Source: Paenibacillus hemerocallicola
GTDB lineage: Bacteria; Bacillota; Bacilli; Paenibacillales; NBRC-103111
NCBI RefSeq assembly: GCF_006265175.1
Contig: NZ_VDCQ01000010.1
Coordinates: forward strand, 1 to 64,000
Direction: 5' to 3'
DNA length: 64,000 nt
Shown here: positions 5,180 to 61,911 of the stretch, piece after piece
Layout: each line of letters starts with the position of its first letter
Position numbering within the stretch: position 1 is the stretch's first letter
Translations under genes and position numbers: made by a program
The notes under the pieces: generated by a model
Told to the model about the DNA's origin: nothing
Seen by the model: only the letters and a program-made list of their open reading frames with translations
The model's database searches: none

Positions 5180-6526
5180 ATGAGACGAATGAGAACCGGA
5201 CTATGCAACCTGCTGCTAACAGCTGTCGTCCTCATCGCCGCACCCGTGCAGGCGTTCGCCGCTCAAACGGTCGTCGTGGACGCCGGACACGGCGGTTCCG
5301 ATCCGGGAGCGGTCGGAGTAAACGGACTTTATGAAAAAACCGTCAATTACGACATTGCGACAAAGCTTCGGCAATTGTTGATCAAGCTCGGATACGACGT
5401 CGTACTTACCCGGGATTCCGACGAGTACATAAGCCTTGCGGAGCGCGTCGACATGACTGCGAGAGCAACGCCCGCGCTGTTCGTATCCGTCCATGCCAAC
5501 TCGCATACCAATGCGAACGTGAACGGCTCGCTTGTCCTTTATTACGACAAAGATTACCCGCAGGAAAGCTATCCCGCAACCGATGCGATGACGGCTCTCT
5601 CGCCGGAGAGCAAGCAGCTCGCCAGCCTCGTGCTTCAAAACATGGTATCCGAGGCCGGTTTTGCCGATAAAGGCATCGTCCCGAGCGCCGCCTACGTCAT
5701 CCGGATGGGACAGGTTCCGAGCATTTTGGTCGAAACCGCATTTTTGAGCAACAAGTCCGATGCCGCCTTGCTCGCGGACGAATCGGTAAGGATGAAGCTG
5801 GCGACGGGAATCGCCAAAGGAATCGCGGCGTATTTGCCTCAAGCCTTGCCCGGAGGATTTTCCGATATTTCCGGCCATTGGGCATCCGACGCGATCGTCC
5901 GGCTGAAGGACAAAGGTCTGGTGGAAGGCGGTATCGGCAACCGATACGAGCCCGACAAGCCGATGACCCGGGCGGAATGGCTGACAATTGCCGACAGGCT
6001 GTTCCATTTCGACACATTGATCCAAAGCAAAACTGCGAATCAAACCGTTCGGCAAACCGTTTACGGCAATGCCGAGACGACTTTCAAAGATTTGAACGGC
6101 AAGCATTGGGCCTATGAAACGTTCCGCCGGGCCATCAGCCTCGGCTATATAAGCGGATACGAGGACGGAACGGTACGTCCGGACCAGGCCGTCACAAGAT
6201 CGGAAGTCGCCGCGCTGCTGGAGAGAATGACCGACGGCCCCAATTCGTCGCCATGGACGAAAGCCGCCGATTTTACGGATGTTCCCTTAACGTATTGGGC
6301 GTCCGGATCGATTTACAGAATGAAGCAAAAAGGCATCCTCAACGGCATAACGGAGAAAACGTTCGCGCCTGCGAGAAGTATGACCCGGGCGGAAATGGCC
6401 GCGATGATAGACCGCTATGTCGCCGCTTCGGCAACGAAAGAAGCGAAAGGCGCATTGACCGCGAACGCACTCAAAGACTCGACTGCCGCCAAGGTTCCCG
6501 TCAGTACAGCCAACGATTCAAAATAG
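5180..6526 (+). CDS. N-acetylmuramoyl-L-alanine amidase with three SLH domains
   Basis: A 448-residue exported wall hydrolase. Residues 1-28 are a signal peptide ending AQAFAA-like. Residues 29-215 are an Amidase_3 domain with the zinc ligands in VVDAGHGGSDPG, the glutamate in NGLYEKTVN, the histidine in FVSVHANSH and the catalytic glutamate in ILVETAFLSN. Three SLH repeats follow (about 225-270, 300-345, 362-410: FSDISGHWASDAI, FKDLNGKHWAYETF, FTDVPLTYWASGSI). It should cut the amide between MurNAc and the stem peptide while bound to secondary wall polymer. The ATG at 5180 follows GGGGAGGGA; an alternative ATG lies three codons on. It is transcribed divergently from DUF4321-maf. Confidence 0.93.
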   Translation: MRRMRTGLCNLLLTAVVLIAAPVQAFAAQTVVVDAGHGGSDPGAVGVNGLYEKTVNYDIATKLRQLLIKLGYDVVLTRDSDEYISLAERVDMTARATPALFVSVHANSHTNANVNGSLVLYYDKDYPQESYPATDAMTALSPESKQLASLVLQNMVSEAGFADKGIVPSAAYVIRMGQVPSILVETAFLSNKSDAALLADESVRMKLATGIAKGIAAYLPQALPGGFSDISGHWASDAIVRLKDKGLVEGGIGNRYEPDKPMTRAEWLTIADRLFHFDTLIQSKTANQTVRQTVYGNAETTFKDLNGKHWAYETFRRAISLGYISGYEDGTVRPDQAVTRSEVAALLERMTDGPNSSPWTKAADFTDVPLTYWASGSIYRMKQKGILNGITEKTFAPARSMTRAEMAAMIDRYVAASATKEAKGALTANALKDSTAAKVPVSTANDSK

Positions 6527-6973
6527 GCCGATTCCGCCAAGAAGGGCACGGACGTCAGCAATCAGAATGAATCCTATACGGAGTCATCATCCTGAATCCA
6601 ATTCCGCATTCCATAAAAAACTACGACCGCGGAATCCGCATACAATCTGGGGGCCCCTTGATGAAGCGGTTACCACGTGTTGCCGTCAATATAGAGGAAC
6701 GATATTCCGCTATGGTCCCGAATTCCGTTATACATTTGAAGTTAACGGAACAGACATCCGTTATCTCGATCTGTCGAGGGGAAAAGGATCATGAACCGCG
6801 AAATAGCGGAGCCGTTTTCCGTTATTTTGCCATTAACGCGATTGCTCGGGTCATTAGCATACTCCGGTTCCGCTATTTGTCGGATTCGCGGTACCGCAAG
6901 GCACCGGCAAAGACAGCCGACCTTCCCCGATGATGCGGCACACTGCACTCCCGTATCCAATTTGACTATCGTA
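6527..6973. other. Intergenic region holding a phased repeat element
   Basis: No gene is supported between the SLH amidase and the spoIIB-like terminator. Short open frames here run through the repeat listed at 6658-6895 and lack ribosome binding sites. No clear terminator follows the amidase. Confidence 0.6.
6658..6895 (+). repeat. Interspersed phased-hairpin repeat, copy A
   Basis: Starts TTGATGAAGCGG and contains ATAGAGGAAC-N3-ATTCCGCTAT, then TAACGGAACAGACATCCGTT, AATAGCGGAGCCGTTTTCCG and GGTTCCGCTATT. Modules begin at 6696, 6747, 6808 and about 6859 (spacing 51, 61, 51). The same blocks in the same order occur at 18881-19112 and, inverted, at 61636-61867. Non-coding. Confidence 0.85.
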
Positions 6974-7007
6974 TAAAAAAAACGCCCCGGCATCGATATC
7001 CGGGGCG
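6974..7007 (-). terminator. Terminator of the spoIIB-like gene
   Basis: Minus strand CGCCCCGG / CCGGGGCG perfect eight-pair stem followed by eight T residues, 12 bases past the stop codon. Confidence 0.9.
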
Positions 7008-7018
7008 GTTTTCGTGTT

Positions 7019-8452
7019 TTACTGCGCTTTGATTGCCGCGAGCAGCTCGTTTTCCGCGAACAGCACTTGCATCAACGACGACTGCGCTTCCCACAAAAAC
7101 GCGGAAGACTGATTTTTTTTGTACTCGTCCATGGACGTTACCGCGGTATTCATCGCCGTCGTCCATTTTTGCAGCGCGGCCTTCTGCTCCTGCGCAAGAC
7201 CCGCGCCGAACGGACCGCTCGCCCCGGTCCACGCCTGATGAGCCGTATGAATCGTCTGCAGCGTCTTGTCGTCGATGGCCGACGGCGTCTTCTCCTTCAG
7301 CCGGGCGGCGGCGAAATTGCCGATCGTCTGAACGAGCGTATGGCTTTGGGCGAAAAACTGTTCCGCAGGCCCCGCCGAATCGCCCGTCCATTTGATTTTG
7401 GTCGCCGCGGGCAGTGTCAATCCTTTCAGGAACAGCTCCATCTTCTGCTCCTTCAGCACATTGCTGAGCGCAAGCGCGTCATCATGGCTCGGTGCCATTC
7501 CGGCATAAACATAAAATTTGTCCGACTGCTGCACGTGTGCCGCAAGGCCCTTCTTCCTCAAATCGGCCGCGGCCGCGTCGGCGCCCTGCTGATTCGAGAA
7601 GACGCCGTTTTGCAGCAGCGTGTACGATTGAGCGGCGATGTTGACGGACACGGTCGCGGCGGCGGCCGACGATGCGGGAGCCGCATTGTCCTTTGCGCCG
7701 GACGGGTCCGCCGCCGGCGTCTTCGTTTGTACCGGAACGGTCGAGGCCGATTTTCCCGAGCCTCCGGTCGTTCCCGCTTGACTGCCCGGGAGCTCGTCCC
7801 CCCCGAACATCGACAAAACGAAAAATCCGATCAAGACGCCCGTTGCGACCGCCCCCGAAACGGAAGCGACGATTTTCAGCCAAGGGGTCCGGTTATGCCG
7901 TTCGTATCTGCCGTGAGTGACGGCGGCCGGAACGTATCTGCCATCATGCTCACCGTGCTGCCGCTCCGTTTCTTCAGGTCCATAATATCCGATATGTCCG
8001 TCATATCGCGCCTCGCGTTCGACCGGAAATCGCTCTTGCCCGGGAAAAGGCTCGGAGTGGCGCTCGGAGTGGCGCTCTGGGTGACGATCTGGGTGACGAT
8101 CTGGGTGACGATCTGGGTGGCGATCTGGATTGCGATCGGGCTGACGCGGGCCCGAAGATTCGCGAATCATCCGCTCGACCTTTTCCGTCTCCGCTTCGAA
8201 AGGGCTTTTCCAAGCTCCGAAGTCGGTGGTGAATTGGTTGAGCGGCTGCGTATCGATAAAATCCCGGCGCGTGCGGCCCGACGTCTCGTTCGGCCAAGCA
8301 TGCTCCGCCGCATGGATGTCCGCCACGAACGAGCGGTCATCCTCTACGACGGTAAACTCCTCCTTGAACAAAGGGATAACCGGCTTCGGCTCCTTGCGGA
8401 CCGCATCCCGTCCCGGATCGTCGAATCGGTACGTAATTCTGGCCTTGTTCAT
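7019..8452 (-). CDS. spoIIB: SPOR-domain membrane protein, SpoIIB-like
   Basis: A 477-residue bitopic membrane protein. The first 190 residues are charged and cytosolic, with a DRHP-type tetrapeptide repeat at about 110-135. One membrane helix lies at about 197-220 (WLKIVASVSGAVATGVLIGFF). An Ala/Ser/Thr/Pro linker follows, then a SPOR-like fold at about 282-350 (SYTLLQNGVFSNQQGADAAA ... FYVYAGMA), which in this family binds denuded glycan at division septa. A helical tail ends the protein. B. subtilis has spoIIB between folC and maf with the same layout (cytosolic N-terminus, one helix, SPOR). Here it also lies on the folC side of maf, so SpoIIB is likely; the extra C-terminal region and low identity keep this tentative. 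AAGGAGTGGAG precedes the ATG. Confidence 0.75.
   Translation of the reverse strand: MNKARITYRFDDPGRDAVRKEPKPVIPLFKEEFTVVEDDRSFVADIHAAEHAWPNETSGRTRRDFIDTQPLNQFTTDFGAWKSPFEAETEKVERMIRESSGPRQPDRNPDRHPDRHPDRHPDRHPERHSERHSEPFPGQERFPVEREARYDGHIGYYGPEETERQHGEHDGRYVPAAVTHGRYERHNRTPWLKIVASVSGAVATGVLIGFFVLSMFGGDELPGSQAGTTGGSGKSASTVPVQTKTPAADPSGAKDNAAPASSAAAATVSVNIAAQSYTLLQNGVFSNQQGADAAAADLRKKGLAAHVQQSDKFYVYAGMAPSHDDALALSNVLKEQKMELFLKGLTLPAATKIKWTGDSAGPAEQFFAQSHTLVQTIGNFAAARLKEKTPSAIDDKTLQTIHTAHQAWTGASGPFGAGLAQEQKAALQKWTTAMNTAVTSMDEYKKNQSSAFLWEAQSSLMQVLFAENELLAAIKAQ
8055..8140 (-). repeat. 12-base tandem repeat in the spoIIB-like gene
   Basis: Seven or so degenerate copies of GATCTGGGTGAC (plus strand) encode DRHP/ERHS tetrapeptides on the minus strand. 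Because the unit is a multiple of three, copy number can change without breaking the frame. Confidence 0.85.
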
Positions 8453-11500: not shown

Positions 11501-14500
11501 CCGGATAATAGTTCATTTTGGACGATCCGTCCGGACGGATTTCGAAGCCCGGATCGTGCTCGTCGAATACGATAATGGCCCCTCCCGGTTCGGAGACGAT
11601 CTCCTTGATCCGGTAACCGCCCGTCGTCTGATCGGGATGCGTCACGACGGCGTATTTACCCCGAAGCGAGGCGGCGTCGATCGCAGCGGCGGTGACGATG
11701 CCGTCATAGGGATCGCCGTTCACTTTCCGTTTCGTTGCCGTAATGACGCCTTGGAGCGTACCGGCTCCCGTCAACGTTTGTCCGCCCTTCGACAGCTGCG
11801 TGCCGCCGATCAAATACATCGACTGGACGACGCCGTCTACCATACGGATAAAGCCCATTTTCCCCCGAAGAGTCATATCGTCCACGACTACCGGTGCGTT
11901 CGTTCCTCCGGGCGAGCTGATCAAAATATCCGTCGTATTGCCGTAGGTGACCTTGATCGCTGCGGCCCCCTCCGGACCTTCGGTCAGCTGCAGCCGATCG
12001 ACCGTATCGAGGCGCGGTCCGGCCGTCCCTTTATAGGGCTCCATTGCCGTTACGAATGTGCTCTTCAGGCTGCTGCCGTCTCGCCTCAGCACGAGCTTCG
12101 GCATGTCGTATTTGTCCGCCTCGTCGTTCGTATCCTTGCTCTTTCCCGACAGCCTCGTCGAGCGAATCGACGGGGATCGGCCCAAATACAGCTCGTTGCT
12201 ACCCGGCTCCAGCAAGCCGGTTATTTTCATTTTCGCTTTTTCGGCGCCGTTCTCGCTCGTAACGAGCGTGACATCGTAACGGTCGCTTTGCAGCTGCGCC
12301 TTCTGCACGTCCCTGACCGAAATATAACCGTAATAATGCCCCTCGGCGCTGCCTTTATCGTTGAATTGCTCCGGCTCCTGCACCTGGGTTCCGGGCGGCA
12401 GCAAATACGGACCGTACTCGTCCAGCGTCATGTCGGTTTCGAATACGGCGTCGCGGTTGGCGTCTCCCTGCAGCGTATACTCGTGGCGGCTGCCGCCGGA
12501 TACGCGGAACAAGTCGATTACGTAGCCTTGGTCGCCATCCGCGCCCGGGAACGATATGAACCAAGGCTCCCGGCTGTACTGCTCCAGTCCGGCGTAAGCC
12601 TCCTTCTGGTCCGCCCGCATCGCCTGAACGGTGCCGACGGGAGCGAATATGCCGATTTTTCCGCCGTGCTTGGAGACGCTGTCGATTTTCATATCTTTGC
12701 TGTCTACGACTACGGTGTTATGTCCCAGCGCCGACAAGGAGAACGACCGGTCCCTCGTGTACGTATAGCCCAAGTCGGGAAGCAGCTCCTGCCCTTCCGC
12801 ATACAGGTTCAGTTGAAGCGGCGCGAAATGATTATGGCCGTATTTCGGCTCGAATTGCAGCCACAGCTGCGATTGGGCGGTTCCCGAGCCTGCGGTCAGA
12901 CGTCCGATTCCCGCGGCCGGCATCAAGAACGAGCCGGCATTCTGAATAGGCGACTGGGCTTTATCGGATGCCCACGAATCCTGAAGCGGCAGCATTTTCC
13001 CGTCGGGATAGACGAGCAGGTTGTTGTCCTTGAGCGACCTCTCGATAATCGGATAATCTTTGGCCATATCCAAATTGTCGAATCGCCTGCCTGTGCGGGG
13101 CGACGCGTAACCGGCCGGATCGGTGTATCCGTCGAGCGCGTTCACGGCCTGGTCCAATCCGTTAGTTGACTGAACGTGATACGACGGGGCCACTTCCTTC
13201 CAATACCCGTCCGATAAAAACTGGGTTTCGACATAATCCTGCATCCATTCGAACGCATTGTGGATATAGTCGGGCTCGTTCAGCATTTTGCCGGCATCGA
13301 TCAAGCCGAGCCACTGGGTATAATTCATATTGCCGAGCGTATACGGATAGCTGAGAGCATATTGCATCGACGGAATGAACATTTGTTCGACAAGCTTTTT
13401 CTCGACGTCCTCGCCGACTTCCTGGCTGAGCACCGATAGGGCGTTCGTCTTCTTCACTTCCGCGTAAGCGCGCAGCAGCGGGCGCAGGCTGTTCAGATCG
13501 GCGACGGACCAGCGGTACCACATGCCGCCCCAATAGTTGAACGGAGGGCCGGACGTAATGTTGATCGGATAATTTCTCCATATGTAGTCGGTCGTCGGCA
13601 CGTAGCCTTCGTACGCCCGAGCGAACCGGTACAGCAGCCTCGCCGCGCCCAGCGCATCCGTTTTGGCGATTTTCTCCGTTTGCCCGGTAGCGTAATTTTT
13701 CTGCAAATACCACAGGTGGGCGGACAGAAAATAACGTTTGCCCTCGGCATCCTCGTAGTAAGGATATTCCAATGTTTCGCCTTTCCGGTTGATCGCCGTC
13801 ACGACATTCGTCTCCGGGTACTGCGAGTTCGGATATACGGTGCCGGTCTTGACCGAGACGAGGCTTTTGTTGTCGGTCGACAGCTTGTACAGCTGGTCCG
13901 GATGCAATTCGGGCATTTCCGGAAGCCCTGTGAAAATAAACCCGGTTTTGTCCGGGATCAGCTCCAGCGTGTCCAATACGAGCTGGGAAGCGGGCGCATA
14001 CACGACTTGGACCGTTCCCGCTGGCGGGTTGGCGGGAACTGCCAAGGCCAGCCCCGCTTCGATCAGGCTGTCCCGGTCGAACGAGACGATCGCAAACTTC
14101 CCTCCTGACGGACTATCCGCCCGATAAGAGTAGACCTGCAGCTCCACGAGGCCGAAATCGAGTACGGGAGGATGCTCGAACGTTATTTCATAGCGGCTGC
14201 CGTACGTAACGCTAGTGACGGTGTTCAACGGCTCCCAGTCGCCCGTCGGGGATTTCCACTTTAGAGCAAACAGGGCGTCATCGGGATCAGGCGCGCTGCT
14301 CCGTTCGAACGAGAGCGTCTTCTCCGTGAAACCGTCGTATCGCAGCTCGGTATTCGCCGGCGACCAGCTTTGCCCTATCGGCGTCTGGCCGAAAAATACG
14401 CTGCCCAACCGCCCTTCGTCGACGATATTGCCTTTGAAGGTGACAGTGCCGCCCGTATCCCAGAACGTGGAGGTACGGATGGGGACCCATGTAAGAAGCG

Positions 14501-15134
14501 GCTTCGTGCCGAGATGATGGACGTGTACGACATTGACCCGCCACTCCGTTCCCGGCGCCGGCACCGCGGCGCCCAAGGCGGATAACGGGACCGATACTTC
14601 CACGGCCGTTCTTCCGCCCGAATCCGTCGTAGCGGTTGTAAACGTATTCACTTTGACCCGCTGCGGATTTTCCTTGGCGATTTCACGCCCGTTGTTCCAG
14701 TCCGTATTCGTTGCTCTCGCCAAAGGTGTCACCGGTAAAGTGACGACATAATGAGGTTCGCCGTACGTTTGCGTACTGACGACCAATTCGATCTTTTCCA
14801 AAATCGCTTTATCCTCCGAAGCGAACGTCCCCCCGAAGTACAGGTTCGTCGAATCGTAAAACATCTTGTAGGACGGACCGTCCGGCACGGGCTCGTTGTA
14901 GTATGCCGTGCGGAAATCGTCGAGCGCGGCCGCGCCGCTCCAGACGCTGTCCGACAGCACGCCGTCGATGACTGGCGCGGTCAGCGTTTCCGGCAGCACC
15001 GTCCATTTGTTCGCATACATCGTTATAGGCGCCCCCGTTTCTGATTCCGTATTCGCCGAAGCCCGCGCCGGTTGGATCAAACCGACCGGAATGCCAAGCG
15101 CCAGCACGATTGTCCATAACAACCATTTGCGCAT
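8577..15134 (-). CDS. Giant secreted heparinase II/III-like polysaccharide lyase, multimodular
   Basis: A 2185-residue secreted protein starting MRKWLLWTIVLALG at an ATG with AAGGAGGGAGAT upstream; a signal peptide ends near ARASA. A CBM9/DOMON-like module covers about 40-240 (PVIDGVLSDSVWSGAA, FYDSTNLYFGG). A heparinase II/III-type catalytic part covers about 430-1150: an alpha-toroid rich in Trp and Tyr, then the beta-sandwich block YGHNHFAPLQLNLYAEG (about 760) and LSALGHNTVVVD (about 800), typical of PL8/PL12/PL21 relatives. Later modules are a Big_2 domain (about 1240-1320), a cadherin-like sandwich (about 1550-1630), a carboxypeptidase-regulatory-like domain (about 1645-1710) and two copies of a beta module at 1830-1955 and 2065-2185 (TYAGLWSSYSGNYVGG, AYTGSWTTSTNAGYYGG). 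The substrate, probably a uronic-acid polymer, is inferred. It is 44 bases downstream of the GntR fusion gene, so probably in one operon. Confidence 0.88.
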   Translation of the reverse strand: MRKWLLWTIVLALGIPVGLIQPARASANTESETGAPITMYANKWTVLPETLTAPVIDGVLSDSVWSGAAALDDFRTAYYNEPVPDGPSYKMFYDSTNLYFGGTFASEDKAILEKIELVVSTQTYGEPHYVVTLPVTPLARATNTDWNNGREIAKENPQRVKVNTFTTATTDSGGRTAVEVSVPLSALGAAVPAPGTEWRVNVVHVHHLGTKPLLTWVPIRTSTFWDTGGTVTFKGNIVDEGRLGSVFFGQTPIGQSWSPANTELRYDGFTEKTLSFERSSAPDPDDALFALKWKSPTGDWEPLNTVTSVTYGSRYEITFEHPPVLDFGLVELQVYSYRADSPSGGKFAIVSFDRDSLIEAGLALAVPANPPAGTVQVVYAPASQLVLDTLELIPDKTGFIFTGLPEMPELHPDQLYKLSTDNKSLVSVKTGTVYPNSQYPETNVVTAINRKGETLEYPYYEDAEGKRYFLSAHLWYLQKNYATGQTEKIAKTDALGAARLLYRFARAYEGYVPTTDYIWRNYPINITSGPPFNYWGGMWYRWSVADLNSLRPLLRAYAEVKKTNALSVLSQEVGEDVEKKLVEQMFIPSMQYALSYPYTLGNMNYTQWLGLIDAGKMLNEPDYIHNAFEWMQDYVETQFLSDGYWKEVAPSYHVQSTNGLDQAVNALDGYTDPAGYASPRTGRRFDNLDMAKDYPIIERSLKDNNLLVYPDGKMLPLQDSWASDKAQSPIQNAGSFLMPAAGIGRLTAGSGTAQSQLWLQFEPKYGHNHFAPLQLNLYAEGQELLPDLGYTYTRDRSFSLSALGHNTVVVDSKDMKIDSVSKHGGKIGIFAPVGTVQAMRADQKEAYAGLEQYSREPWFISFPGADGDQGYVIDLFRVSGGSRHEYTLQGDANRDAVFETDMTLDEYGPYLLPPGTQVQEPEQFNDKGSAEGHYYGYISVRDVQKAQLQSDRYDVTLVTSENGAEKAKMKITGLLEPGSNELYLGRSPSIRSTRLSGKSKDTNDEADKYDMPKLVLRRDGSSLKSTFVTAMEPYKGTAGPRLDTVDRLQLTEGPEGAAAIKVTYGNTTDILISSPGGTNAPVVVDDMTLRGKMGFIRMVDGVVQSMYLIGGTQLSKGGQTLTGAGTLQGVITATKRKVNGDPYDGIVTAAAIDAASLRGKYAVVTHPDQTTGGYRIKEIVSEPGGAIIVFDEHDPGFEIRPDGSSKMNYYPAKSWTGTHSFLIDNVDVYDTNPLQSVSLQASKKDLLAGESASLTVQAARRDGSALPPGAAKATYASSDENVVRVDPEGNVEAIGEGTANITAVVDWNGVTKTSSLLFTSQNRAYRTFDFVNLPILQQSASTLYVSGSNTVQFEANQAGESITFEFEVDEEAPFDIGIKPFSAASYGIYQISIDGNPIASFDFYAASAGASAVFRPLGTMTLAPGKHTMTLANIGKHASATNYKFGVSRLEVKEKLLEPPALSQQSGSVYAEEAVAISFVDDPVWRGRLASVAVNGVPLSSGQYTVSSGSIAFAAGALGGAGPKRISIGAEGYRHAITELGLIASSALSGLAVVPGPIVPSFDPGITEYAVSVSNAVYSVNVTASTYKPSALLSVAGQIYSSAGTFTLPLQVGENPFPVVVQSAGGQSSVYKLTVYRAGTDLSPTGTVTGTVYVQGNEPLSGAELRLAGYSRSAVTGGTGGYAMTDVPAGQHRLIVTHPEHGRTESELFRAIQGQSVALSVYYPFIDTVPPVLTVARTQVSAGMQVLATADEAGKLYLVPDATAADAASIIAASAAPNGSSANASAQAEAALNTIGFAKGKYKLYGIDTSNNLSLEPVSITIVQAALGAIDETDPTLTYAGLWSSYSGNYVGGKMLLSRDIAGSVEIPFFGTRAKWVGAKNAAYGIGNVYLDGQLASTVDLYNPALLTKQDLFDTGTLAPGMHVLKIVPTGQKNALASNTYVSFDAVQVTELGYATPVVSQVTAGPVYAGTPISAVSSENGLLYLVPSGTAASWGALEQAVSTTGQSVNGVKITATAGTPVSFQTANMAHGQYKVYAVNPAGVLSAGSAPVTVIATTSSVIDSANPLVAYTGSWTTSTNAGYYGGTERIGTAANSTVEIEFYGSRGVLYGTLASNGGLADIYLDGQFIETYDFYRGGTGVLKSKIWDTGLLPLGMHSLKIVNTGDKHPLSKNTWIRFDYLQTTAP

Positions 15135-18788: not shown

Positions 18789-18840
18789 AAAAGCTCGCGG
18801 CATTTCGATTTTAAAAAAGCTCGCGACATTTCGATTTTAA
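18789..18840 (+). repeat. Perfectly abutting 26-base duplication
   Basis: AAAAGCTCGCGGCATTTCG... at 18789-18814 is repeated at 18815-18840 with one G to A change. It lies just after the lipoprotein gene and is non-coding. Confidence 0.9.
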
Positions 18841-18880
18841 AAAACTGCGGCAGTATGTTCCGCATCCAAATCGGTGGCTC

Positions 18881-19112
18881 TTGACGAGGCGGTGCAACTT
18901 GCTGCCGTAAATAGAGGAACTGGATTCCGCTATTGTCCCATATTCCGTTACACGCTTGAATATAACGGAACCTCCTCCGTTATCTCGAGCTGTCGGGGTG
19001 AAGATGGGGAGTGAACTGCGGAATACCGGAACGGATTTCCTTTATTTTTCAAACAACAGGGAGACCTGGGGCAATAGCGTACGCCAGTTCCGCTATTGGA
19101 TGGATTCCCGTC
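18881..19112 (+). repeat. Interspersed phased-hairpin repeat, copy B
   Basis: Same order of blocks as copy A (TTGACGAGGCGG, AATAGAGGAACTGGATTCCG, TAACGGAACCTCCTCCGTTA, GGAACGGATTTCC, AGTTCCGCTATT). Modules begin at 18917, 18967, 19028 and about 19079 (spacing 50, 61, 51). It occupies most of the gap between the lipoprotein gene and murC. Confidence 0.85.
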
Positions 19113-19191
19113 CCGCAAACGTCCGCGGAGGTACCCAGCCTGTACCGATCATGCGGTACATGCACTTTCCTACGCGAATGATGCTTTCGCA

Positions 19192-19229
19192 AAAAAAAGC
19201 CGCACGACTGTTTCAGTCGTCGGCTTTTT
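19192..19229 (-). terminator. Terminator of the valS-folC-murC operon
   Basis: AGCCG-CACGACTG / CAGTCGT-CGGCT stem with a TTT loop, followed on the minus strand by eight T residues, 20 bases past the murC stop. It has T tracts on both sides and could work in both directions. Confidence 0.9.
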
Positions 19230-19248: not shown

Positions 19249-20640
19249 TCAGCTTTTCCGCTCCGCCAAAGCTTTCGCCAAAGCGTGGGAAACCTTCCAA
19301 ATATCGCCCGCCCCCATCGTCAGCACGAGATCGCCGCCGGCGATGACATGCAGCAAATAATCGGTTATTTCGGCTACGGACGAAATGTATCGGACGTTCT
19401 CGTTGCTGTTGCGCCCGATCAGCTCCACCAATTTCTCCGAGCTGATTCCTTCGATTTGCCGCTCGCCCGCAGGGGAATATATATCGGCAATGATAACCTC
19501 GTCCGCTTCGCCGAACGCTTTGCTGAACTGCTCGAACAAAAAATAAGTGCGCGTATACCTCTGCGGCTGAAAAACGGCGATAATCCGTTTGCCCGTCGCC
19601 TTGGCTGCGCTGATCGTGGCCTGAATTTCCGTCGGATGGTGCGCGTAATCGTCGATAACGAGAATGCCTTCGGTTTCGCCCAGCACTTGAAAGCGGCGCT
19701 TCGCTCCGCGAAACAGCTTGATCGCCGCGGCAAAGTCGGCGAACGGCAGGCCCGCTTCGCGGCAGACGATAAAGGCGGCAAGCGCGTTGTATACGTTGTG
19801 CCGGCCCGGTACGGACAGCTCCAGCGTTCCGAGCGTTTGCCCCTCGTGCTCTACCTCGAACGAGACCCGCCGGTCTCCCAGACGAACGTTCGACGCCGTA
19901 TAATCGGCCGACCATTCCAATCCGTAAGAGATCGAATCGACGGAAACGGAGGCGAGAACTTCCCTGACGTCCGGATCGTCGATACAGACGATCGCCTGCC
20001 CGCCGCCCGTTACCTGGCTCAAAAATTGCGAGTAGGCCTGCTTCAGCTTGCCGAAGTCCCCGTCGTAATTTTCCAGATGGTCGGCTTCGATATTGGTCAC
20101 GATCGCATAGTGCGGCCTATACCGGAGAAACGATCCGTCGCTTTCGTCCGCCTCGGCGACAACGTAATCGCCGCTGCCGGCTTTGGCGTTGCTGCCGACG
20201 TTCATGATTTCCCCGCCGATGATATAGGTCGGATCGAGCCCGCATTCCTCCATGACGAGCGATATCATCGACGTCGTCGTCGTCTTTCCGTGAGCGCCGG
20301 CAACGGCGATCCCTTTGCGCGCCTCCATCAGCTTGGCGAGCATCTGGGAACGGTGGAGAATCGGAATGTTCAAACGCTCGGCCTCGGCGATCTCCACGTT
20401 ATCCTTGGACAGCGCCGTGGAATAAACGACGACGTCAGCTCCCCTTACATGGCTCGCCTCATGCCCGATGAATACTTTCGCACCACCAGCCGCCAGCTTG
20501 TCGGTCAGCTCCTGGCTCGCCAAATCCGATCCCGTCACCGTGTAGCCCATCTCGAGCATCACCTTGGCGATTGCGCTCATTCCGTATCCGCCGATACCGA
20601 TAAAATGCACCTGCTCCGTCGTATTCACGCCCACGATCAC
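19249..20640 (-). CDS. murC: UDP-N-acetylmuramate--L-alanine ligase
   Basis: A 463-residue cytoplasmic Mur ligase that adds L-alanine to UDP-MurNAc using ATP, the first stem-peptide step. The N-terminal Rossmann-like domain opens HFIGIGGYGMSAIA; the ATP loop GAHGKTTTTSMI lies near residue 110; the C-terminal domain has VIDDYAHHPTEI near 315. The ATG overlaps the folC stop by four bases (ATGA), showing translational coupling. It is the last gene of valS-folC-murC, which differs from B. subtilis, where murC is elsewhere. Confidence 0.97.
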   Translation of the reverse strand: MIVGVNTTEQVHFIGIGGYGMSAIAKVMLEMGYTVTGSDLASQELTDKLAAGGAKVFIGHEASHVRGADVVVYSTALSKDNVEIAEAERLNIPILHRSQMLAKLMEARKGIAVAGAHGKTTTTSMISLVMEECGLDPTYIIGGEIMNVGSNAKAGSGDYVVAEADESDGSFLRYRPHYAIVTNIEADHLENYDGDFGKLKQAYSQFLSQVTGGGQAIVCIDDPDVREVLASVSVDSISYGLEWSADYTASNVRLGDRRVSFEVEHEGQTLGTLELSVPGRHNVYNALAAFIVCREAGLPFADFAAAIKLFRGAKRRFQVLGETEGILVIDDYAHHPTEIQATISAAKATGKRIIAVFQPQRYTRTYFLFEQFSKAFGEADEVIIADIYSPAGERQIEGISSEKLVELIGRNSNENVRYISSVAEITDYLLHVIAGGDLVLTMGAGDIWKVSHALAKALAERKS

Positions 20641-25813: not shown

Positions 25814-25852
25814 CACTGCGCAGTTCCAGGAGTTCGCATCCTTGCAGGAAAC

Positions 25853-26120
25853 GGAACGAAAAGTTCCGCTATTGCTCTTCATCGCGTCGAAAAAGGGCCG
25901 TAACGGAACAATTCGTTCCTGTATTCCACTCAGCAACCCGTTCTACAGCCTTTTTTCGGCCATTAGCGGAACTTTTCATTCCGTTTGGGCCTGCTCACTC
26001 TCGGCTTCATAAAAGAACGATTTGTTCCCCTCGCCGTCGAATAGAGGAACTCGTCGTTCCTGATCCCGATCGCTCCCCCTCATCGAGGCGCTCCACCAGA
26101 GGAACGGCTTTTCGTTGCTC
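25853..26120 (+). repeat. Interspersed phased-hairpin repeat, copy D
   Basis: Six short inverted modules such as GGAACGAAAAGTTCC, GGAACAATTCGTTCC, GGAACTTTTCATTCC and GGAACTCGTCGTTCC. They begin at 25853, 25905, 25968, 26014, 26046 and 26101 (spacing 52, 63, 46, 32, 55). The flanking bases (AATAGAGGAAC, GTTCCGCTATT) are the same as in copies A-C. This covers most of the gap between the small gene and spoVID. Confidence 0.8.
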
Positions 26121-47844: not shown

Positions 47845-48060
47845 CTCCAGTCCCCCCTGTATTAGCTTAGCATGCATCGTTACAGGAAACACAACGGAAC
47901 TTCATTTTTTGACTTTCTTATATTATACGGGATAGCGGCCGCAGGCTACAAACACGGGTTTGGACTTTATTTACAACCGTTCCCCTTATCGAATCGGCAT
48001 CGAAAATGACGGTTGCGGCCCGCATCCCCGGTCGCTGACGGCTGTCCGATCAAGCAAAAC
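47845..48060. other. Intergenic region upstream of the zinc-ribbon gene
   Basis: AT-rich from 47880 to 47940, likely holding the zinc-ribbon promoter; nothing else is supported. Confidence 0.4.
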
Positions 48061-48276
48061 GGAACAAAAAGTTCCGCTATTCCGTCGGGGAGCCGCTAAA
48101 ATGTGCGTAGAGGAACAATGATTTCCTTTATTGGCCGAATGCAGGCCGTTTGAGAGCCGTTTTACTTGAATAGAGGAATTAAACGTTCCGTTTGCGCTGT
48201 TCACCCGCCCTTCGCGGGAAATAGGGGAACTAATCGTTCCCTTCACAAAAAATAAAGGAAATACTTGTTCCGCTCA
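48061..48276 (+). repeat. Interspersed phased-hairpin repeat, copy E
   Basis: Five modules: GGAACAAAAAGTTCC, GGAACAATGATTTCC, GGAATTAAACGTTCC, GGAACTAATCGTTCC, GGAAATACTTGTTCC, at 48061, 48112, 48175, 48226 and 48257 (spacing 51, 63, 51, 31). Four of the five are preceded by AATAGAG, GTAGAG or a one-base variant (AATAGGG, AATAAAG). An additional GCGGGAA..TTCGCGGG-like hairpin lies near 48210. Confidence 0.85.
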
Positions 48277-48376
48277 GCCGCGAAGAAAGCCTTCCAAGCC
48301 GCATTCACGGCTTTCCTATGGCGGGAACCCCTTTCGGGCACCGACGCAGGGAATCGGGCTTAGCTGGGCGCACATA

Positions 48377-55196: not shown

Positions 55197-55526
55197 GTTC
55201 TTGTTTACGAACTTACTTGGATTCACAATTAGTAACTTTAGGTGTTAAGTGAAACGAGGCGCTTTTTCGGCCCGTTTCCGAGCCGATAACGGCTCTCCCG
55301 TCCGTTAGCCGGATCGAAGAAGGGCATTCGCCCCAATAGCGTTTGCTCCTGTCCGTTAGCCCGGGCTTCCTATGACAGCTGCGTTTCCCCGTCCTGTCCG
55401 CCTAGTAAAGGTCATCTCTGATAAGGAAACCTTCACCCGAGTAGTAACCTTTCGGTTCACTATTCATCCATTTTAATAGCCAGCTAGCACACCGTTGCGG
55501 TTCTTCTATCCCAACGCGAATCGAGC
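55197..55526. other. Intergenic region with a divergent phased repeat
   Basis: 330 bases between the convergent amidase and ispG genes. It holds the repeat listed at 55287-55400. No clear terminator for either gene is seen. Confidence 0.5.
55287..55400 (+). repeat. Divergent relative of the phased-hairpin repeat, copy F
   Basis: TAACGG (55287-55292) / CCGTTA (55302-55307), then AATAGCG...TCCTGTCCGTTAGC at 55335-55360 and TCCTGTCCGCCTAG near 55393-55405. The first two CCGTTA motifs are 51 bases apart; the third is 45 further on. Confidence 0.5.
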
Positions 55527-61428: not shown

Positions 61429-61499
61429 GCGGGTGTAGTTCAATGGCAGAACTCCAGCTTCCCAAGCTGGTGGCGTGGGTTCGATTCCCATCACCCGCT
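61429..61499 (+). tRNA. tRNA-Gly, anticodon CCC
   Basis: Acceptor arms GCGGGTG / CACCCGC pair fully. D arm GTTCAATGGCAGAAC, anticodon stem CCAGC / GCTGG with loop TTCCCAA, T arm GTGGG-TTCGATT-CCCAT. No CCA is encoded. CCC is the less usual glycine anticodon, reading GGG. Confidence 0.95.
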
Positions 61500-61517: not shown

Positions 61518-61553
61518 AAATCCTTTGCAGCGCAGCTCAAAGGATTTTTTTCT
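61518..61553 (+). terminator. Terminator of tRNA-Gly
   Basis: AAATCCTTTG / CAAAGGATTT stem followed by TTTTTTTC. Confidence 0.93.
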
Positions 61554-61635
61554 ATTTACAACAACATTCGCGTACAGAAGTACCTGTACCACACGCTCGG
61601 CGAAGGCCAGTCGCCTTCGTCGGCGCCTGCGTGGC

Positions 61636-61867
61636 CGGGAATCCATCAAATAGCGGAACTGACGTATGTTATTGACCCGAATACCGATGTCGAACGCATC
61701 ATAACGGAAAACCGTGCCGCTATTCCGCTGTTCACGTTCATTTTTCACCCCATAGCACCGAGATAACGGAAGTCTGTTCTGTTAAATTCGAAAGTGCAAC
61801 GGTATTGGGCATAATAACGGAATCCAATTCCTCTAAATAACCGCACTATTGGCACAAGTCTCATCAA
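61636..61867 (-). repeat. Interspersed phased-hairpin repeat, copy C (inverted)
   Basis: On the minus strand it reads like copies A and B: TTGATGAG, TTTAGAGGAATTGGATTCCG, TAACAGAACAGACTTCCGTT, GGAATAGCGGCACGG and AGTTCCGCTATT. Modules begin at 61831, 61780, 61718 and about 61667 (spacing 51, 62, 51). Confidence 0.85.
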
Positions 61868-61911
61868 GCGGCCTCTAGAGTGGGTGCAGATTATGCTGTC
61901 CTGTATTTTTC

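Follow-up and report, generated by a model that had tools for sequence, protein, structure and literature searches.

Arrays of helically phased palindromes dispersed in Paenibacillales genomes: conserved distances, far less conserved linkers

The window, as the whole stretch of 64,000 nucleotides analysed here is called (contig NZ_VDCQ01000010.1 of Paenibacillus hemerocallicola, positions 1 to 64,000), holds three copies (A, B and C) of an interspersed element with four short palindromic modules at its core. An initial annotation of the letters had placed three module copies at 6658-6895, 18881-19112 and, inverted, 61636-61867; they lie there, and a module scan confirms the distances between their modules. 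These elements, their neighbours and two arrays of a second type are listed below.

6621..6974, + strand: copy A, whole MITE-like element between AAAAAA and AAAAAAA, both terminal inverted repeats (TIRs) included; ends read in the 32-copy alignment
6690..6877, + strand: core array of copy A by the module scan; modules 6690-6714, 6741-6765, 6802-6826 and 6853-6877, starts 51-61-51 bp apart
18845..19192, + strand: copy B, whole element (L001 1476-1823)
18910..19097, + strand: core array of copy B by the module scan; modules 18910-18934, 18961-18984, 19022-19046 and 19073-19097, centres 50.5-61.5-51 bp apart
19249-20640, - strand: murC (Mur ligase gene), neighbour of copy B
25847..26066, unstranded: type II array; modules 25847-25873, 25899-25925 and 25962-25988 (52-63 bp apart), then 26040-26066 at 78 bp, off the ladder of distances
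48055..48277, unstranded: type II array; modules 48055-48081, 48106-48132, 48169-48195 and 48220-48247 (51-63-51.5 bp apart), with an extra module 48251-48277 at about 30 bp
61429-61499, + strand: tRNA-Gly gene, adjoining copy C
61552..61904, - strand: copy C, whole element, inverted; ends approximate
61649..61837, - strand: core array of copy C by the module scan; modules 61649-61673, 61700-61724, 61762-61786 and 61813-61837, 51-62-51 bp apart

Copies A, B and C can be aligned over their full length (mean column identity 81%) and are copies of one element. The TIR of copy A is matched at 6621-6639 with 3 mismatches, and a promoter and terminator scan of 6500-7060 around this copy gave no terminator-like site. 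Copy B adjoins the T-tract of a putative murC terminator that was read by eye and whose stem was not flagged by a simple hairpin scan; immediately upstream of the copy, at 18789-18840, there is a 26-bp tandem duplication, AAAAGCTCGCGGCATTTCGATTTTAA.

The general layout consists of four palindromes of the form TARCGGAAC-N-GTTCCGYTA at about 51-62-51 bp or 51-72-51 bp, or of tandem arrays at 51 bp. The short pattern GGAACN{3,9}TTCC has 35 matches in the window against a mean of 5.24 in shuffled sequence (none of 100 shuffles had as many). Module pairs at 50-53.5, 61-64.5 or 71-73.5 bp number 31 at a loose threshold, chance pairs included; 200 shuffles gave 8.4 on average and never more than 17. 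The type II arrays differ from type I in the inner gap (GGAAC-5-GTTCC) and were not joined to the family of A, B and C by blastn (E 1e-4, at least 90 bases). One linker of both types holds a similar GTGAA..GAACAGCG-like stretch, seen by eye, and a distant common descent of the two is possible.

In the window's own genome, which bears the handle G000 (other G numbers denote other genomes of the order sample), the type I array is carried by an element of about 350 bp (median of full-length copies, 352 bp), as seen in the alignment of 32 copies, and its ends are inverted repeats beginning CTACGACAGCATAATYCGC, with a TIR of about 24 bp. The TIR has 61 matches in this genome at up to 2 mismatches and none in the control. 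There are 23 full-length TIR pairs, 16 of them between equal A or T runs of at least 5; these borders are themselves homopolymer runs, so the length of any target site duplication is unreadable from the 16. Six of the 16 have a hairpin of at least 5 bp adjoining the run in a simple scan, and some of the runs appear to be terminators. An autonomous parent sharing the TIRs was not recognised at the 30 of the 61 TIR places that were read as loci, and the TIR was absent from the 58 relatives searched at up to 1 mismatch. A first genome-wide look gave 222 candidates, and all 40 that were scored were long matches. In 857 kb of large contigs picked among those with copies, 36 clusters of at least two modules were found, of which 24 form one linked family. 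The remainder comprise type II clusters (4 and 2 linked, and the single cluster 15 by its modules), the single clusters 5 and 8, which are in geometry, and clusters 16, 24 and 28, which look like chance. A further array of this genome (contig C135, L081 1886-2161) has six modules at 51-61-51-61-51 bp, as though a two-module unit of 112 bp had been repeated.

The core array is not tied to this carrier, since the same layout occurs in other genomes with other linkers and without TIRs seen where the borders were aligned. This is the case in the congener G001 (6 copies) and in G009 (5 copies), where homology ends outside the outer palindromes; part of the regions in both was picked because they had matches. 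In G030 the core sits inside a different and larger repeat, one end of which has a terminator-like hairpin, as read by eye with 3 of 30 rows left out. Tandem arrays at 51 bp are found in G200, G280, G353, G312 and G013, and an array of 19 modules in Cohnella endophytica begins with a gap of 72 bp, after which the gaps are about 51 bp. Some linkers have features of their own: in Ammoniphilus resinae (L331, L306) the middle linker holds a TGCAAACGTTTGCA-like palindrome, and in G009 (L135 about 14421-14620, which is C1 94421-94620, and others) the linkers hold direct repeats of GGGAAAT about 11 bp apart (ATTTCCCGGGTATTTCCC), which resemble the Noc binding site. The earlier statement that linkers differ while spacing is kept does not apply among A, B and C, which are one element, but stands between array families. 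According to the initial annotation, end-to-end alignment of the copies with a known insertion sequence or MITE would refute its find; the copies in this genome do align from end to end as a MITE-like element, but the array also exists elsewhere without the carrier.

The distances between neighbouring modules were collected in a strict scan (module score at least 19, neighbours 24-110 bp apart) of 27 groups of loci, among which some named records may equal handle genomes; in the groups checked, no 100-mer was common to two loci. Of 341 distances, 332 are on the ladder, with 228 at 50-54, 79 at 61-64 and 25 at 71-74 bp. The nine others are at 30-32 (2), 82-87 (4) and 103-110 bp (3), and none falls at 33-49, 55-60 or 65-70 bp. 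The best period is 10.65-10.85 bp, and at 10.5 bp the regularity R is 0.89 for module centres and 0.93 for edges. Looser scans also gave off-ladder distances (e.g., 54, 59, 77 and 78 bp; 19, 30, 36, 74, 78 and 82 bp in G000 clusters, the chance-like clusters 16, 24 and 28 among them), and those of L187 include 40 and 42 bp. The edge-to-edge linkers measure about 26, 37 and 47 bp although the inner gaps differ, which indicates that it is the length of the linker that is conserved. Distances close to integral numbers of helical turns, as in phased operator arrays, are therefore present in the window and in other genomes, in line with the five and six turns of B-DNA first proposed for the window, and random spacing in other copies, the second outcome that would have spoken against the proposal, was not seen.

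Selection on this geometry had also been suggested, and signs of it were found. Of the 61 TIR matches the first 30 yielded the main test set, 26 distinct elements chosen regardless of their core; 24 of them hold at least four modules in geometry and the other two hold three each (L055 is cut by a contig end). The core in this set took 12 indel events, or 2.45 per kb per copy, whereas the arms, TIRs counted in, took 33 and 54 (18.9 and 21.6 per kb per copy); private indels number 5 in the core and 10 and 18 in the arms. The indel rate of the array core is hence about one eighth of that in the arms. The singleton rate is 0.029 in linkers (65/2262), 0.034 in both arms and 0.012 in half-sites (19/1642). 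Substitutions in linkers are hence almost as frequent as in arms, while half-sites have about 2.5 times fewer singleton changes. Two further sets were found by core similarity, a bias absent from the TIR-found set. In G030 (28 of 30 copies, 2 left out) core indels are 1.3 against 20-28 per kb, the latter inflated by flanks that are non-homologous in some copies, with singleton rates of 0.0061 in half-sites, 0.0267 in linkers and 0.0296 in flanks. In 30 copies of G000 the corresponding values are 4.4 against 20-21 per kb, and 0.0104, 0.0216 and 0.0261. The main result is that the distances are conserved and the linker sequences far less; as core indels are depleted while linkers substitute nearly like arms, the spacing appears to be selected. 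With 26-30 copies sampled, a singleton is not necessarily private to one copy and does not prove selection after insertion, but the depletion is probably in part post-insertion.

Whether the palindromes act as DNA sites or as hairpins was approached through covariation. At the R/Y position, readable in 459 of 470 distinct modules, the pairs GC, GT, AC and AT occur 101, 109, 135 and 114 times (odds ratio 0.78, p 0.22; Mantel-Haenszel odds ratio 0.57 after stratification), and an inverse association (p 0.02) is seen when G000 is taken by itself. Such independence is what two half-sites recognised in double-stranded DNA would show. The second variable position (M/K) does show dyad coupling (C-G/A-T, odds ratio 3.4, p 0.002), an argument against reading the palindromes purely as two half-sites. 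Between families the palindromes also differ in their inner gap (GGAA-5/6/7-TTCC), which is unusual for one rigid dimer site; as edges are slightly more regular than centres, the unit may be two half-sites facing across a linker. A search of the window against Rfam at the gathering score returned two tRNAs only.

The arrays have a patchy distribution. A strict two-module pattern matches 26 of 392 genomes of the order, 1 to 315 times each, where per-genome counts of 1-4 may be chance, and the reversed pattern gave 5 matches in 4 genomes of the same 392. Within the window's genus, arrays occur in four of the five sampled genomes and not in G004, and they are abundant in 7 of the 58 relatives lacking a match to the type I TIR. 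A three-module pattern accepting any linker of 40-52 nucleotides, run on a collection of 84,980 species, gave 103 stretches; the 80 listed, on which the taxon spread rests, belong to Paenibacillaceae (Paenibacillus, Cohnella, Gordonibacillus and one MAG) and to Ammoniphilus resinae. The search patterns fix the first spacing near 51 bp within a few bases, and the 62 and 72 classes are unselected in the scans of the order and of the relatives.

Most arrays are intergenic. Among the 111 with usable crude gene calls (11 inside ORF calls were left out), the flanking genes are convergent in 43 cases, tandem in 58 and divergent in 10, where the own background of each group predicts 29.0 convergent (z +3.0) and 21.9 divergent (z -2.9). 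This convergent excess and divergent deficit fit ordinary promoter control less well than a role in DNA architecture or as a road-block. Exceptions by the same crude calls are G009 (5 of 10 divergent) and G000 (7 of 26 convergent, no clear excess). Positions are mostly not conserved when the flanks of 77 arrays of G000, 16 of G001 and 12 of G009 are compared. G000 and G001 have only murC in common, with the array on the same side, and this single case proves nothing at a rough chance expectation of 0.3; G001 and G009 share one operon with arrays at opposite ends, and G000 and G009 one gene about 750 bp from the array in both. Of 30 murC loci read from 35 genomes, only those of G000 and G001 have arrays, the intergenic region in G003 and G004 holding none. 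Arrays at the same place were also seen between lepA and hemN in Cohnella panacarvi (L320) and G318, and in both same-place cases the array types differ. Carriage as plasmid or phage cargo was considered and dropped, copy B (the sole query) being unmatched in 72,556 plasmid and 50,697 phage records; a scan of viral contigs gave five stretches, of which only L173 has an array in geometry.

A partner protein was sought among the neighbours and by family. In 20 loci of 20 genomes, 16 of which contained a recognised cluster, and subsequently in 80 named loci, few families were common to several genomes and no common neighbour gene stood out; Pfam assigned seven neighbour proteins to LepA, HemN-like, GGDEF-EAL, AraC, ABC and GntR-type families, one being without a family. 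The Myb-like family PF13921, tried for the TAACGG of the half-site, which resembles a Myb site, is found in 38 of 40 genomes but is absent from the array-bearing G013, and was set aside. ParB was likewise rejected, since the copy number of ParB_N does not visibly follow the arrays in the 40 genomes searched. The Y1 transposase PF01797 occurs in 22 of 59 genomes (G000-G058), namely in 7 of 8 array-rich ones against 15 of 51 others (p 0.003), in a count that pools RAYT and other Y1 proteins. Its matches are broken or partial in G000 and G009, there are none in G013, and G018 has 15 with no array match. The Y1 transposase is thus enriched but no clean fit as a partner; genome size or IS load may explain the enrichment, and a Y1-type mobiliser may yet have acted in the past.

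Several known systems resemble these arrays in part. As in REP, BIME and REPIN elements, a genome has a large number of palindromic units between its genes, an element comprises several of them, and the distribution between genomes is patchy. By contrast, the pairing kept by compensatory change that helps define those elements is lacking at the R/Y position, the M/K position alone being coupled, so the core fails one defining REP/REPIN test; distances are quantised near 10.5 bp, linkers are nearly free and the link to Y1 is statistical only. With its TIRs and equal A/T runs at both borders, the type I carrier here resembles MITEs such as RUP, MITEAba12 and Correia-type elements. The carrier in this genome is MITE-like, but the core itself does not qualify as a MITE, as it exists in other genomes without type I TIRs and its spacing is constrained. 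ComK boxes, Lrp-type wrapped sites and res sites are dyad sites on one DNA face at discrete spacings and belong to single promoters or recombination sites, whereas the arrays occur in numerous copies around the genome, mostly not at divergent promoters. The sites of Noc, MatP and ParB are dispersed chromosomal palindromes for one protein but single sites, unlike the multi-site, patchily distributed arrays. The initial annotation knew of no described family with this layout, and a literature search, outside which lay most subscription journals and preprints, found no description of it either.

On balance we think it somewhat more likely than not that these are phased double-stranded operator arrays for a candidate dimeric DNA-binding protein on one helix face. 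Palindromic sites with the half-site TARCGGAAC would be spaced by about 5, 6 or 7 turns of B-DNA, dimers of one protein would bind them all on the same face and join as a single assembly, and this assembly would wrap, stiffen or bridge the DNA; linker length would be constrained and linker sequence left nearly free. The arrays would spread within a genome on repeat carriers, here a TIR element entering A/T runs, and their role is probably architectural. The geometry, the depletion of indels and half-site changes, the lack of pairing at R/Y, the carrier and the patchy distribution are all observed, and the protein, its cooperative assembly and the function are inferred from them. Of the readings offered at first, a protein array or bridging site, with a putative protein, is retained as the best one, and a structured RNA is disfavoured by the R/Y position, though one other position is coupled. 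Tentatively, and with slightly less than an even chance, the arrays form an undescribed class: genome-wide helically phased operator arrays, scattered in Paenibacillales and Ammoniphilus, that nucleate wrapping or bridging by a putative protein and are maintained copy by copy for geometry and not for linker sequence. If so, some bacteria would hold many short DNA scaffolds that carry distance, not sequence, as information, which would offer a natural read-out of protein assembly on one DNA face and point to a new nucleoid or transcription-insulating system.

A selfish repeat could produce much of this pattern if the array were the cis-acting site of a putative mobilising enzyme and copies with wrong spacing did not move. 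The dispersed families particular to each genome, their patchy occurrence, the TIRs and equal A/T runs of G000, the array-free murC intergenic regions and the Y1 enrichment all agree with it. Yet half-sites and spacing alike show a deficit of singleton changes that probably arose partly after insertion, arrays abound in relatives where the type I TIR is not found, no autonomous partner or common neighbour gene came to light, the Y1 matches are broken or partial in G000 and G009 and missing in G013, and tandem arrays of up to 19 modules would be odd as a transposition end; we regard this explanation as unlikely, though deserving of real weight. The spacing could also be no more than inherited, the palindromes lying inside an ordinary MITE. 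This would account for the end-to-end alignment of A, B, C and the examined type I copies, for the TIRs, for the median length of 352 bp and for the equal runs on both sides of 16 of 23 full-length copies. Such a reading is very improbable, given that the geometry is common to families unlinked by blastn and to other genera without type I TIRs, and that core indels are about 8-fold depleted within the same copies.

Hairpins of RNA or single-stranded DNA, in the manner of REP, BIME and REPIN elements or of a structured RNA, are suggested by the palindromes, which allow stems of 10-11 bp with 5-nt loops, by the coupling at the M/K position and by the commoner Y1 transposases in array-rich genomes; but the independent or inverse R/Y pair, a 10.5-bp quantisation that is unexpected for single-strand linkers, the lack of Rfam matches other than tRNAs and the mismatch between Y1 genes and arrays (none seen intact in G000 or G009, none in G013, many in the array-free G018) make this reading improbable. 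The Y1 enrichment gives slightly more weight to the selfish repeat and to hairpins and slightly less to phased operator arrays, the reading that we prefer.

Two further repeats were noted in the window. At 55285-55360, between convergent genes, there is a degenerate palindrome pair 50.5 bp apart (GATAACGGCTCTCCCGTCCGTTAGC ... AATAGCGTTTGCTCCTGTCCGTTAGC), which may be another repeat family, its left flank being, by eye, like sequence downstream of L027. At 1-395 lie repeats whose copies are spaced by multiples of 9 bases; they possibly represent a coding stretch of the Gly-X-Y type.
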